Shown: in pieces, positions 30,714 through 36,200 of the stretch
Position numbering within the stretch: the first letter of the stretch is position 1
How the letters are laid out: each line of letters opens with the position of its first letter
Assembly: GCA_001412365.1 (NCBI GenBank)
Contig: LKUE01000319.1
Location: forward strand, 1-64,000
Direction of reading: 5' to 3'
Source: Desulfuromonas sp. SDB
GTDB lineage: Bacteria; SDB-A
DNA: 64,000 bases
The notes under the pieces: model-generated
Database searches by the model: none
Seen by the model: only the letters and a program-made list of their open reading frames with translations
What the model was told of the DNA's origin: nothing
Made by a program: the position numbers and the translations under genes

Positions 30714-31991
30714 ATGTCAGTAACTGCTGTGGTCGGAGCAAATTGGGGAGATGAAGGAAAAGGTAAAATGACAGATTACCTGGCTCAGAAATCAGATATT
30801 GTAGTAAGATTTCAGGGTGGTAATAATGCCGGTCATACTATCATAAATAAATTTGGTAAATTTGCCCTCCATCTTCTTCCTTCCGGAATATTTTATCCCC
30901 ATGTAACCAATATTCTGGGACCAGGCATTGCTCTGAATATACAAGCATTTTTTGATGAGTTAAATTCCCTCCTAAACAGAGATATTCCCAAGCCAAAAAT
31001 CTATATTTCAAATCGAGCCCAGATATTGATGCCCTACCACCTGCTCTTCGACCAACTGGAGGAACAAAGGCTTGCCGATAAGAAATTTGGCTCAACTAAG
31101 TCGGGAATAGCTCCTTTTTATGCAGATAAGTATCACAAAATCGGAATTTCAGTCTCCCACCTGGAGCATCCAGAATACCTGCGAGAACGGTTGGAATCAA
31201 TAATTCAGCCCAAAAATGTAATTTTAAAACATCTGTACAATCATCCTCCATTATCCCCCCAGGAAATTTACCAGCAGCTCATGAGTTTTAAACCGCAGCT
31301 TGACCCACTGATAATTGATACCCAGAAGTTATTTTACCAAGCCCTTAAGCAAAATAAATCAATACTAATAGAGGGGCAGCTGGGAGCATTGAGAGATCCG
31401 GATCATGGAATTTATCCATATTCAACTTCATCTTCTCCTCTTGCCGGATATGCCTCGGTGGGAGCAGGAATCCCCCCTTATCAAATCAACCAGGTGATAG
31501 GGGTGGTCAAAGCCTATTCCACCTGTGTGGGGGCAGGTCCCTTGGTCACTGAATTATTTGGAGAACAGGCAGATCAACTCAGAAATAAGGGGGGAGACAG
31601 CGGGGAATATGGAGCAACCACAGGAAGACCGAGAAGAGTGGGGTGGTTTGATGCCGTGGCTACAAGATACGGATGCAGGGTACAAGGAGCTACCGAAGTG
31701 GCGTTAACTCTTGTGGATGTTTTGGGTTACCTGGAGGAGATAAAAATTTGCACCGGCTATGATATTCAGGGAACGGTAACTGATGATTTTCCTGCCACTA
31801 TCCATTTAGATAAAGCTGCTCCGGTTTATCAATCGTTCCAAGGATGGAAAGAGGACATCTCCTCAATCAGGGATTATAAAAAACTTCCAACATCCTGCCG
31901 GGATTATGTCGGCTTTATTCAGGATTATCTGGGAATTCCCATAAAATGGATTTCAGTAGGACCTCACCGGGAAAATCTTATTAAAATTTAA
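30714..31991 (+). CDS. purA: Adenylosuccinate synthetase
   Basis: First committed step from IMP to AMP (GTP-dependent). It is 425 aa from ATG 30714; AAAAGGAG lies 9 nt before it. The GDEGKGKMTDYLAQ P-loop, NNAGHTI, GTTGRPRRVGWFD and the C-terminal SVGPHRENLI motifs are diagnostic. purB, its pathway partner, is on the other strand at 58-59 kb. Confidence 0.97.
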   Translation: MSVTAVVGANWGDEGKGKMTDYLAQKSDIVVRFQGGNNAGHTIINKFGKFALHLLPSGIFYPHVTNILGPGIALNIQAFFDELNSLLNRDIPKPKIYISNRAQILMPYHLLFDQLEEQRLADKKFGSTKSGIAPFYADKYHKIGISVSHLEHPEYLRERLESIIQPKNVILKHLYNHPPLSPQEIYQQLMSFKPQLDPLIIDTQKLFYQALKQNKSILIEGQLGALRDPDHGIYPYSTSSSPLAGYASVGAGIPPYQINQVIGVVKAYSTCVGAGPLVTELFGEQADQLRNKGGDSGEYGATTGRPRRVGWFDAVATRYGCRVQGATEVALTLVDVLGYLEEIKICTGYDIQGTVTDDFPATIHLDKAAPVYQSFQGWKEDISSIRDYKKLPTSCRDYVGFIQDYLGIPIKWISVGPHRENLIKI

Positions 31992-32004: not shown

Positions 32005-32820
32005 ATGAGTTCAGTTAGTTTTAAACGAAAACCAGTCAATTTAGCAGGCAGCCGGGTAGAGATTGGAGATAGTGCCCCACCGTTTAAAGCAATCAGCAAT
32101 GATCTGAAATTATTTAAATTAACTGACTTAACTTCTGCTTATAAAATTATTACCAGTTTCCCCTCCCTGGATACTCCGGTTTGCGACCTGCAAGTAAAAC
32201 AATTCAATCAGGATGCTGCTGAATTATCCGATGAAGTAACCGTGGTGGGGATAAGCAAAGACCTTCCCTTTGCCCAGCAGAGGTTTTGTTCCATGAATGA
32301 AATTAAAAATGTTCAGGTGGTATCAGATTACCGGTTTACTTCCTTCGGCTATCATTATGGAGTTTTAATCGAGGAACTTAATCTCTTAGCCCGTACTGTT
32401 TTTATCCTGGATTCTAAAAATATAATTAGATACATTCAGATAGTAGATGAAATTACCCATCAGCCTGATTACCAGGATGTTCTAGACAAATTAAATGAGA
32501 TTATTTCTCAAACAAAGGAATCTGCCGACGCGGCAGCTTCTTCCGTTCCATTAAATAATATTCAGGATATTACCGGGCAATTTAAACGTTGGGAATTAAG
32601 CGACAATTTTAAAATAAAAGCTACTTTTATTTTGCCTCCTTCTAAATCACCCCGTTTTATGGTTAAAGCAATTTTGGTGATATCCGAACAATATGAAATT
32701 CAACCTTTTATGACTTACCAGGAAGATAAATTAGTTCTGGAATTGTCTGATTTAAAGGAAGTTGAGATTAACCAAAATTTACTGAATTTTGTGAAAGCAG
32801 TTGACCGCCTTAAAATTTAA
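32005..32820 (+). CDS. Thiol peroxidase (Tpx) fused to a pterin-dehydratase-like C-terminal domain
   Basis: A 271-aa protein. Residues 1-172 are an atypical 2-Cys Tpx peroxiredoxin with peroxidatic Cys60 (SLDTPVCDLQ) and resolving Cys95 (FAQQRFCSM), at the positions of the E. coli enzyme. A linker (172-185) leads to an ~85-residue domain with the layout of a pterin-4a-carbinolamine dehydratase: Trp196, an aromatic strand, a long helix, a LVLELSD strand and a closing LLNFVKAVDRL helix. The catalytic HHP motif is IQP (232-234), so it is unlikely to be a dehydratase. Ordinary Tpx proteins are ~165 aa. Function of the extra domain is unknown. Confidence 0.75.
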   Translation: MSSVSFKRKPVNLAGSRVEIGDSAPPFKAISNDLKLFKLTDLTSAYKIITSFPSLDTPVCDLQVKQFNQDAAELSDEVTVVGISKDLPFAQQRFCSMNEIKNVQVVSDYRFTSFGYHYGVLIEELNLLARTVFILDSKNIIRYIQIVDEITHQPDYQDVLDKLNEIISQTKESADAAASSVPLNNIQDITGQFKRWELSDNFKIKATFILPPSKSPRFMVKAILVISEQYEIQPFMTYQEDKLVLELSDLKEVEINQNLLNFVKAVDRLKI

Positions 32821-32835
32821 CTGGATAAGATAAAT

Positions 32836-33468
32836 ATGGCTAAAACTCAGTGTTTCGATGATTATGTTGACCGATATGAACAGTGGTTTAAAGATTATTC
32901 CTGGGTTTATCAAACCGAATTAAACGCTCTTTCCTCCCTGAATATAGATAAGGGGGAGGGCATTGAAATCGGAACCGGGACCGGCTTATTTGCTCAGCCC
33001 CTGGGGATAAAATGGGGAGTGGAGCCTTCCCCGGAAATGCTCAAAATAGCTAAAAACAGGGGAGTTAATACAATCAGAGGTATAGCCGAGCAACTTCCTC
33101 TGAAAGCACAGAGTTTCGATGTGGTACTGCTGGTAACGGTAGTGTGTTTTTTAGATGATATAAATGCGGGGTTTAAGGAATGCCGGAGAATTTTAAAACC
33201 AGGGGGAAGGTTGGTGGTCGGTTTTGTAGATGCAGACAGCCCTCTGGGCAAACTGTATCAGAAATTCAAAAATGACAATGTTTTTTACCGTTTGGCTGAA
33301 TTTCAATCGGTTAACCGCATTGCCAAGATAATGCAAAATAATAAATTTAAGCTCATCTCGGTAAGGCAGACTGTATTCGGAGAATTAGATCAGATTAAGG
33401 ATATCCAGGAGTACCGATCCGGTCATGGAGAAGGAGGTTTTGCAGTAATGGAGGTTTCGCCTGTCTAA
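32836..33468 (+). CDS. Class I SAM-dependent methyltransferase
   Basis: A 210-aa protein with the Rossmann methyltransferase signature: motif I GIEIGTGTGLFA near residue 40, DVVLLVTVVCFL for motif II and ILKPGGRLVVGF for motif III. The substrate is unknown. It lies 15 nt after the peroxidase fusion and 2 nt before larE, so it is probably in the same operon as the lar genes. Confidence 0.82.
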   Translation: MAKTQCFDDYVDRYEQWFKDYSWVYQTELNALSSLNIDKGEGIEIGTGTGLFAQPLGIKWGVEPSPEMLKIAKNRGVNTIRGIAEQLPLKAQSFDVVLLVTVVCFLDDINAGFKECRRILKPGGRLVVGFVDADSPLGKLYQKFKNDNVFYRLAEFQSVNRIAKIMQNNKFKLISVRQTVFGELDQIKDIQEYRSGHGEGGFAVMEVSPV

Positions 33469-33470
33469 TT

Positions 33471-34256
33471 ATGGAACTTTATAATAAATACCGGCAGCTT
33501 AAAGCTCTATTTGAGCAGATGGATGGAGCAATAATTGCTTATTCGGGAGGAGTGGACAGCACCTTAGTGCTGAAAGCAGGGCTGGATGTTATTCCCCGCA
33601 GGATAATTCCCGTAATGATATTTTCCGATGCTCAACCACTCGTTCAGTGGCAACGGGCATCAGCTGTTGCCCATCATTTAGGAACCAGGCTGTTCTGTTT
33701 ACATTTAGATCCATTGTCATTACCCCAAGTTCAAGCTAATAACAACCGCCGGTGTTATTTCTGCAAAAAACTAATATTTGAAAATCTACGAAAACTTGCC
33801 CATTTGTTAAATATCCGGAATATCCTGGAAGGAACTAATGCTGATGACTTAAGGAGATACCGTCCGGGAAAGGATTGTTTAATTGAACTAAATGTCCGCA
33901 GTCCATTGGTGGAGACCAATTGGAGTTCACCGCAAATTAGAAAAATGCTGGAATTACTACACATCCCTAATTGGAACACTCCATCCCAATCTTGTCTGAT
34001 TACCCGTATTCCCTACGGGCAAAAACCTACTGCACAGAGAATGTGGAGGGTTGAACAAGCGGAGGAATATATCAGATCCCTGGGTATAGAGGTAGTCAGA
34101 GTTAGGGACCATGATCAGCTGGCTAGAATTGAAATATTAAGAGATGATTTTAATAAATTTTTTCATTATCAGATTTACTCGGAGATAAATACAAACTTGA
34201 AAAAAATTGGCTACAGTTATGTAACTGTGGATTTACAACCTTACCACCCATGGTAG
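33471..34256 (+). CDS. larE: LarE, sulfur insertion enzyme of nickel-pincer cofactor synthesis
   Basis: An ATP-pyrophosphatase-type sulfur transferase, 261 aa. The PP-loop is SGGVDST (about residues 24-30). A CYFCK segment is in the middle. Near residue 175, QSCLITRIPYG holds the Cys corresponding to the sacrificial sulfur donor of Lactobacillus LarE (Cys176). Only one Cys is present in this C-terminal part, so it looks like the sacrificial rather than the [4Fe-4S] type. It is followed by larB after 4 nt. Confidence 0.9.
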   Translation: MELYNKYRQLKALFEQMDGAIIAYSGGVDSTLVLKAGLDVIPRRIIPVMIFSDAQPLVQWQRASAVAHHLGTRLFCLHLDPLSLPQVQANNNRRCYFCKKLIFENLRKLAHLLNIRNILEGTNADDLRRYRPGKDCLIELNVRSPLVETNWSSPQIRKMLELLHIPNWNTPSQSCLITRIPYGQKPTAQRMWRVEQAEEYIRSLGIEVVRVRDHDQLARIEILRDDFNKFFHYQIYSEINTNLKKIGYSYVTVDLQPYHPW

Positions 34257-34260
34257 AGTT

Positions 34261-35016
34261 ATGAACCTTGATCTTTTAGAAAATATTTTACAGCAAGTGA
34301 GAGCAGGAAAATTACCGGTGGATAAAGCATTACAGGAATTATCAACATGGGGATACTTGGATCTTGGTTTTGCTAAATTAGATTTAGACAGACAGAGAAG
34401 AGTGGGCTTTCCGGAAGTGGTTTACGGCAAAGGTAAAACGGTTGATCAGATAATTGAAATAGTTAAATCGCTTTATCAACATCATTCCATGGCAGTGGTT
34501 ACCAAAGTTAATGAAGATATTGCCAGTTCACTAACTTCCTGCCAGCTTCCAGTGAAATATTACCATCAGGCAAAAATAATTTTAGTGGGTGAACCTAGAC
34601 CGGTAAAATCCCCTCCTGCGGTGGCGGTAATTACCGGGGGAACTGCAGATATACCTGTAGCTGAGGAAGCAGCAGTTATTTGTGAAATTTATGGGAATGA
34701 AGTGGTGAGAATATATGACGCAGGAGTTGCTGGCATTCACCGTTTAATCAATAATTTAGAAAAGATAAACCAGGCGGGAATTATCATTGTGGTAGCGGGG
34801 ATGGAAGGGGCATTGGGCAGCATTGTGGGCGGTCTGACTCCCCGTCCGGTAATTGCAGTTCCCACCAGTGTGGGATACGGAGCTAATTTTCATGGATTAG
34901 CTGCTCTGTTAACTATGCTGAATTCCTGTGCTCCGGGAGTGGCGGTAGTAAATATTGACAATGGTTTCGGAGCGGGAGTTTTTGCAGCCATGGTCAATCA
35001 AGGATTAGTTAAATGA
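34261..35016 (+). CDS. larB: LarB, nicotinic acid adenine dinucleotide carboxylase/hydrolase
   Basis: Carboxylates and hydrolyses nicotinic acid adenine dinucleotide, first step of the nickel-pincer nucleotide pathway. It is 251 aa. The C-terminal PurE-like domain has AVITGGTADIPVAEEAA, YDAGVAGIHRL, VVAGMEGALGSIVGGL and VGYGANFHGLAAL. The N-terminal ~100 residues are the LarB-specific extension. It overlaps larC by 4 nt. Confidence 0.93.
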   Translation: MNLDLLENILQQVRAGKLPVDKALQELSTWGYLDLGFAKLDLDRQRRVGFPEVVYGKGKTVDQIIEIVKSLYQHHSMAVVTKVNEDIASSLTSCQLPVKYYHQAKIILVGEPRPVKSPPAVAVITGGTADIPVAEEAAVICEIYGNEVVRIYDAGVAGIHRLINNLEKINQAGIIIVVAGMEGALGSIVGGLTPRPVIAVPTSVGYGANFHGLAALLTMLNSCAPGVAVVNIDNGFGAGVFAAMVNQGLVK

Positions 35017-36200
35017 TTAAGGGGTATTTTCACTGTTTCTCCGGAGTTAGCGGAGATATGCTGGTGGGAGCTTTTCTAGATTCAGGGGTGGAATTAACTG
35101 AGTTGCAATCCGAATTATCTAAACTAAAACTGACCGGATATCGAATTTATTCAGAAAAGGTGCTGAAAAATGGACTGGGGGGCACTAAGTTTAAAGTAGA
35201 AGCGGCACAGGATCATCCCTTTCGGAATTTAAATGATATTCTTAATTTAATAGAACAAAGCGGTTTATCCAAGTCAGTTAAGCAAAAATCAGTAAAGACC
35301 TTTGAACTTCTGGGGGAAATAGAGTCGGGAATTCATGGTTGTGATATCGGAAAAATTCATTTTCATGAAATTGGAGCAGTGGATTCAATTATTGATATAG
35401 TAAGTGTTTTTATCTGTGATCAACTTTCAGGCATTGATCAGTATTACTGTTCAAAAATACATATTGGCACCGGTTTCACCAATTGTGATCATGGTCTTAT
35501 TCCCCTGCCCTCTCCCGCCACCTCTGCTTTATTGAGGGGACTGCCCACTTTTAGCCTGGGCATACCGGGGGAATTAGCTACTCCCACCGGCGCCGCCCTG
35601 TTGAAAATCTTAGTGGATGAGTTTGACCGTTATCCTGCCATGATTATAAAGGATACCGGTTACGGAGCAGGTTCCCGGGATTTAAAAACCCCCAATTTAT
35701 TGAGATTGATAATTGGTGAATCAAGCGAAGATATGGCAGGCAATGGTTTTCAGACCGATCAGATTGTTTTAGTCCAGGCAAATATTGACGATATGAATCC
35801 TGAATACTACCACTTGGTTATGGATAAGCTGGAGCAAGCAGGGACAGTGGATGTATTTCTGGAACAGGTGATCATGAAAAATTCCCGTCCCGGAGTGATC
35901 TTGAATGTATTAGTAGAAGAACAAAATCTACTGCCGGTGGGTAATGTAATTCTCCGGGAAACGTCCACTTTTGGATTGAGATTCCAAAAGCTAAATAGAT
36001 TTAAGCTGGTTAGAAAAATCAAAGAAGTGAAAACTGATTATGGTCCCATAAAAGTCAAACTAGGTTTAATTGGAGATGATCTTATTAAAATTGCGCCTGA
36101 ATACCGGGACTGCAGACGAATTTCAATTGAACATAATATACCTTTAGATGAAGTTTATCAATTGGCTAAAAGTAAATTTAACCAGGAACATAAGATATGA
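35013..36200 (+). CDS. larC: LarC, nickel insertion cyclometallase
   Basis: Inserts Ni into the pyridinium bisthiocarboxylate mononucleotide. It is 395 aa in one uninterrupted frame, unlike Lactobacillus plantarum where larC1/larC2 are joined by frameshift. The N-terminal FHCFSGVSGDMLVGA and the HFHEIGAVDSIIDI motif with histidines are typical, and QANIDDMNPEYY begins the C-terminal part. It ends in an ATGA overlap with gmhA. No larA (lactate racemase) is in this window. Confidence 0.92.
   Translation: MIKGYFHCFSGVSGDMLVGAFLDSGVELTELQSELSKLKLTGYRIYSEKVLKNGLGGTKFKVEAAQDHPFRNLNDILNLIEQSGLSKSVKQKSVKTFELLGEIESGIHGCDIGKIHFHEIGAVDSIIDIVSVFICDQLSGIDQYYCSKIHIGTGFTNCDHGLIPLPSPATSALLRGLPTFSLGIPGELATPTGAALLKILVDEFDRYPAMIIKDTGYGAGSRDLKTPNLLRLIIGESSEDMAGNGFQTDQIVLVQANIDDMNPEYYHLVMDKLEQAGTVDVFLEQVIMKNSRPGVILNVLVEEQNLLPVGNVILRETSTFGLRFQKLNRFKLVRKIKEVKTDYGPIKVKLGLIGDDLIKIAPEYRDCRRISIEHNIPLDEVYQLAKSKFNQEHKI

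Follow-up and report, generated by a model that had tools for sequence, protein, structure and literature searches.

Thiol peroxidases of the Tpx type (NF001808) are atypical 2-Cys peroxiredoxins that are recognised by a TxxC motif with a resolving cysteine about 35 residues further on, and the known members consist of a single domain. A peroxiredoxin joined to a second enzyme is found in the Thermotoga peroxiredoxin (Bcp)-nitroreductase hybrid 4eo3. The pterin-4a-carbinolamine dehydratases (PCD/DCoH/PhhB; PF01329, COG2154) carry the active-site motif HHP...Y/W...H...D. According to the passage of PMC3223725 that cites Naponelli et al. 2008, PCD is present in many bacteria without phenylalanine hydroxylase, and a role related to the molybdenum cofactor has been proposed. 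The PCD fold also occurs without a dehydratase role in the Rubisco assembly factors acRAF/RAF2 (passage of PMC7714395 that cites a 2014 study), which provide a precedent for a structural role.

The gene considered here, from Desulfuromonas sp. SDB, encodes a Tpx followed by a degenerate PCD. Its product differs from 4eo3, in which the peroxiredoxin is of the Bcp/PrxQ type and the partner is a flavin reductase, and from acRAF/RAF2, which have another partner and no peroxiredoxin fusion. The first-pass annotation knew of no account of such a pairing, and no description of Tpx-PCD was found in the literature searched (subscription papers and domain databases aside), so that the architecture may be listed somewhere. 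The gene is one of a limited set of Tpx-PCD fusions that appear not to have been described as a family, and most of the others have the second enzyme intact. What is new is the domain architecture, both component families being already known.

A single reading frame with a complete Tpx domain

The window, that is, the whole stretch of 64,000 nucleotides analysed, contains the following features.

32005..32820, + strand: tpx-PCD-like fusion gene, 271 aa; one open frame whose codon usage is coding-like over its whole length
32005..32499, + strand: Tpx (atypical 2-Cys peroxiredoxin) domain, residues 1-165; NF001808 at E 5e-54, and PDB Tpx chains
32182..32184, + strand: Cys60, expected peroxidatic cysteine (TPVC motif, with Thr57); sequence and alignment A1
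32287..32289, + strand: Cys95, expected resolving cysteine; sequence and alignment A1
32500..32547, + strand: linker, residues 166-181, without CxPC; alignments A1 and A2
32548..32817, + strand: degenerate PCD-fold domain, residues 182-271; fused-PCD HMM, and modelled fold matching 2ebb
32698..32706, + strand: Ile232-Gln233-Pro234 replacing the PCD active-site His-His-Pro; alignment A2

The gene is a single intact ORF with an ATG start and no internal stop, lying between purA, which ends at 31991, 13 bases upstream, and a methyltransferase gene, which starts at 32836, 15 bases downstream. In its own frame the tail has a codon-usage score of +0.328 bits per codon, against 0.263 for the Tpx part, 0.286 for purA and 0.237 for the next gene, and in every other frame the score is negative. 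Because the tail thus matches the neighbouring genes in its own frame only, a frameshift or readthrough joining two genes is ruled out, which disposes of the frameshift that the first-pass annotation had named as a ground for refutation. Directly after the methyltransferase gene, three consecutive genes (33471-36200) resemble by eye larE, larB and larC of the nickel-pincer cofactor.

Residues 1-163 match NF001808 with 182 bits (the cut-off is 123), and the PDB Tpx chain 2jsy matches the protein at E 6.8e-41. The Tpx domain is whole, with Thr57, Cys60 and Cys95 at the spacing typical of the family; as first read from the sequence, both Tpx cysteines are intact, and they are the only cysteines in the protein, with none after residue 95. 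Unlike the known single-domain members, the protein has about 105 additional C-terminal residues. Its Tpx half would be expected to act as an ordinary thioredoxin-dependent peroxidase, in which Cys60 attacks the peroxide and Cys95 resolves.

Tpx fused to intact PCD in other genomes

The tail of some 90 residues has no match to any Pfam or NCBIfam model. PF01329, which matches the intact relatives described below at E 1e-24 to 1e-29, gave no reported match to the window protein up to E 10, a search in which the HMMER filters drop weak matches; hence, its resemblance to PCD is invisible to routine annotation. A phmmer search of PDB sequences yielded a chance hit only (E 0.89), the tail was its own sole match in 98 genomes, and single-protein scans of genome and viral contigs gave no matches.

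Relatives were instead found through over-long Tpx frames. A survey of 386 genomes yielded a single further Tpx whose tail is related, G127, which is 40% identical over the fusion. Relatives of G127 supplied five more proteins of the same kind, together with one (L086, genome G406) that carries a canonical PCD after Tpx (PF01329, E 7.6e-29). A scan of named genomes with the fusion alignment added 14 complete fusions whose PCD is intact (L110-L123) and a frameshifted one in a thin assembly (L131). In L124 the fusion is interrupted by the assembly, with a PCD score equal to that of L087 (G405), and four further intact fusions came from relatives of Candidatus Loosdrechtia. The listing of genomes with the same domain order that was proposed at the outset therefore runs to at least 20 other genomes in which Tpx is fused to a complete PCD with HHP intact. 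The hosts of intact fusions are mostly Omnitrophota, along with Brocadiales-type Planctomycetota and two Gammaproteobacteria MAGs. Plasmid records gave matches to single-domain Tpx only.

The history of the fusion was followed in a tree of Tpx domains alone, with tails left out, comprising 15 intact fusions, six degenerate fusions (family f125), the window protein and other Tpx. A clade of 27 rows, supported at 100/99, unites the intact and degenerate fusions, the window protein and five tail-less rows, and all 60 other Tpx domains lie outside it; the place of the window protein inside the clade is less firm (97/78). Since all the fusions fall in one clade, the fusion seems to have arisen once, and by the same Tpx-domain comparison the window gene shares common descent with the intact Tpx-PCD fusions. 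The tail-less rows are the frameshifted L131 and L125, L126, L127 and L128; no PCD was present in the surrounding DNA examined for the latter four, which are apparent losses of the PCD domain inside the fusion clade.

A CxPC motif stands before the PCD domain in the linkers of L110-L123 (CxSC in L121), so that all intact fusions here but one have it, and it is absent from the window protein. It is also present in the stand-alone PCDs L018, L019 and L021, which suggests that the fusion took in an entire PCD gene.

Other Tpx fusions were seen in passing. In the two Gammaproteobacteria MAGs, rhodanese precedes Tpx in Rhodanese-Tpx-PCD triple fusions (L119:5665-6858 and L123:5605-6846), and a gene for Fe/Mn superoxide dismutase follows that of L123. 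Nitroreductase-Tpx fusions with the nitroreductase first, confirmed by Pfam, occur in two genomes of one family (L062:1452-2636, - strand; L063:787-1974, + strand), and G272 (L064) has a likeness to such a fusion by eye. One open frame at L065:411-2204 (- strand) combines Tpx with porphobilinogen synthase (ALAD/HemB), as a fusion or through a sequence error.

A degenerate PCD in the tail

Aligned with the fused PCDs (alignment A2), the window tail is almost gapless, with an identity to intact PCDs of only 14-22%. It scores 19.4 bits against an HMM of the fused PCDs, and none of 3000 shuffles scored as high. When 8,111 ORFs from all loci were ranked by this HMM, true PCDs came first and degenerate tails next; among the latter were a few unrelated ORFs resembling ferritin-like proteins, with scores that are sums of two weak pieces. 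The window tail has a single-domain score of 16.4, and the highest among the unrelated domains inspected was 9.7.

Modelled from its sequence alone with AlphaFold2, the tail gave a poor model (pLDDT 48) and no useful fold matches. With alignment A2 the model reached pLDDT 78 and pTM 0.70 and has the PCD order of elements. The fold search suggested in the first-pass annotation, carried out on this model with Foldseek and VIA-align, placed PCDs in every leading PDB position (Z 11.3 to 8.4), led by 2ebb (Z 11.3, TM 0.73) and 3jst (also Z 11.3), with the best unrelated chain at Z 7.2 and the acRAF/RAF2 chain 4low at Z 8.5. As alignment A2 itself contains true PCDs, these matches indicate compatibility with the PCD fold more than they provide independent proof of it.

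In the same alignment the active-site motif of PCD has been lost from the tail: IQP occupies residues 232-234 in place of HHP, as was claimed at first reading, and the Tyr, the third His and the Asp are replaced. The tail is like PCD in its predicted fold, order of elements and conserved Trp and Phe, and related to it by descent through the intact fusions; it differs in falling below Pfam detection, in its active site and in being fused to Tpx. The PCD-like layout read from the letters alone is thus borne out by the intact fused relatives, the alignment and the fold match, which together support the tail being a degenerate PCD, one that shares fold and ancestry with PCD and has lost the catalytic residues.

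That the tail might be an unrelated orphan domain, resembling PCD by chance, would fit the lack of any family match, the poor single-sequence model with no fold matches, and the behaviour of three of the six degenerate tails in f125, whose scores against stand-alone PCDs are equalled or exceeded by many shuffles. This proposal is largely refuted by the Tpx-domain tree, which sets the window protein among the Tpx-PCD fusions, and by the near-gapless alignment, the shuffles and the fold match, and we regard it as highly improbable.

Selection on degenerate tails

Among the f125 proteins, the tails of L081 and L082 have a dN/dS of about 0.10 (0.062/0.62), equal to that of the Tpx half (0.078/0.75), and those of L083/L084 and L084/L085 have values of about 0.25-0.27 with dS near 1. 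The degenerate tails of the six f125 relatives are under purifying selection, and a catalytically dead tail can consequently still be functional. These figures are for f125 tails only, no relative of the window gene close enough for dN/dS having been found.

This selection bears on whether the window tail is what remains of a formerly useful PCD, now in decay and without present function. The loss of catalytic residues, the low identity to PCDs and the four members of the fusion clade that dropped the tail entirely (L125-L128) all speak for decay, but the frame and codon usage are intact over 90 codons, the tail aligns almost without gaps and is compatible with the PCD fold, and its degenerate relatives are constrained. 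We regard decay as an unlikely account.

We consider it probable that the window protein works as a normal Tpx peroxidase and has inherited a catalytically dead PCD-fold module for oligomerisation or docking. An ancestral Tpx would have been fused once to a whole PCD, and in the window lineage the PCD half has lost its catalytic residues and would have kept its fold. Against this reading stand the low identity of the tail to intact PCDs, the missing Pfam match and poor model obtained from the tail by itself, and the position of the gene away from oxidative-stress genes. By analogy with acRAF/RAF2, the tail would then most likely be an oligomerisation or docking module, and the dimerisation or regulatory add-on envisaged in the first-pass annotation is plausible on the same analogy.

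Genome context and a possible role in pterin repair

All 14 intact-fusion genomes have no PCD apart from the fused one, and no other PCD was found in the genomes of degenerate members, including that of the window. A biopterin-dependent hydroxylase was found in none of 21 fusion genomes (14 intact; 7 degenerate, window included), and neither MoaC nor MoaA in the 14 intact-fusion genomes. Three degenerate f125 genomes have both MoaC and MoaA, and four additional anammox-type genomes that carry intact fusions have MoaA, so that no molybdenum cofactor gene was found in 14 of 18 genomes with intact fusions. Because the genome of L117 (Loosdrechtia) is without MoaC/MoaA and its relatives have MoaA, draft incompleteness may explain some of these absences. 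The molybdenum cofactor is unsupported as a general reason for the fusion, although it may apply to the four anammox-type relatives with MoaA. The role of PCD in the fusions appears to be independent of phenylalanine hydroxylase and, in most hosts, of the molybdenum cofactor.

Near the intact fusions lie, among others, genes for superoxide reductase, rubrerythrin, ferritin-like proteins, flavodiiron protein, DJ-1/PfpI and Fe/Mn-SOD, as well as a thioredoxin-reductase-like flavoprotein. The degenerate G127 gene lies near genes for ferritin, superoxide reductase, a carboxymuconolactone decarboxylase-family protein and FMN reductase. Unlike many of its relatives, the window gene has no oxidative-stress gene cluster around it. 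A sole PCD that is fused to a peroxidase, in genomes with no aromatic hydroxylase and mostly no molybdenum cofactor genes, and often among oxidative-stress neighbours, suggests that it serves in defence against peroxide.

Such a role could take the form of pterin repair, the parent fusion being bifunctional and the window protein keeping the first step only, or binding pterin without dehydrating it; we give this a low probability. The steps themselves, doubtful to a like degree, would be reduction of a pterin or folate 4a-hydroperoxide to the 4a-carbinolamine by the Tpx half, followed by conversion to the quinonoid dihydropterin by the PCD half. The two would be chemically consecutive, and the scheme gains from the catalytic residues (HHP, Tyr/Trp, His and Asp), which the intact fusions examined retain, from the gene neighbours, and from the pattern of sole PCDs without hydroxylase, MoaC or MoaA. 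However, the window protein and six relatives have lost the PCD active site and kept Tpx, which makes the second step dispensable, and a pterin gene was recognised at none of the neighbourhoods looked at. We know of no Tpx with pterin-hydroperoxide reductase activity, and none was found in the literature searched. In its most general form, Tpx-PCD would be a two-step repair system for peroxide-damaged pterins, independent of aromatic hydroxylases and the molybdenum cofactor, with the second enzyme turned into a pterin sensor or a peroxidase scaffold in the window protein and its degenerate relatives; this is a speculative extension that we hold to be quite unlikely.

The degenerate members are cases of a catalytic domain retained although its active site has gone. 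The Tpx-PCD fusion raises the question of why peroxide removal has been joined to pterin repair, and the genomes that carry it make a role of PCD in peroxide defence testable.
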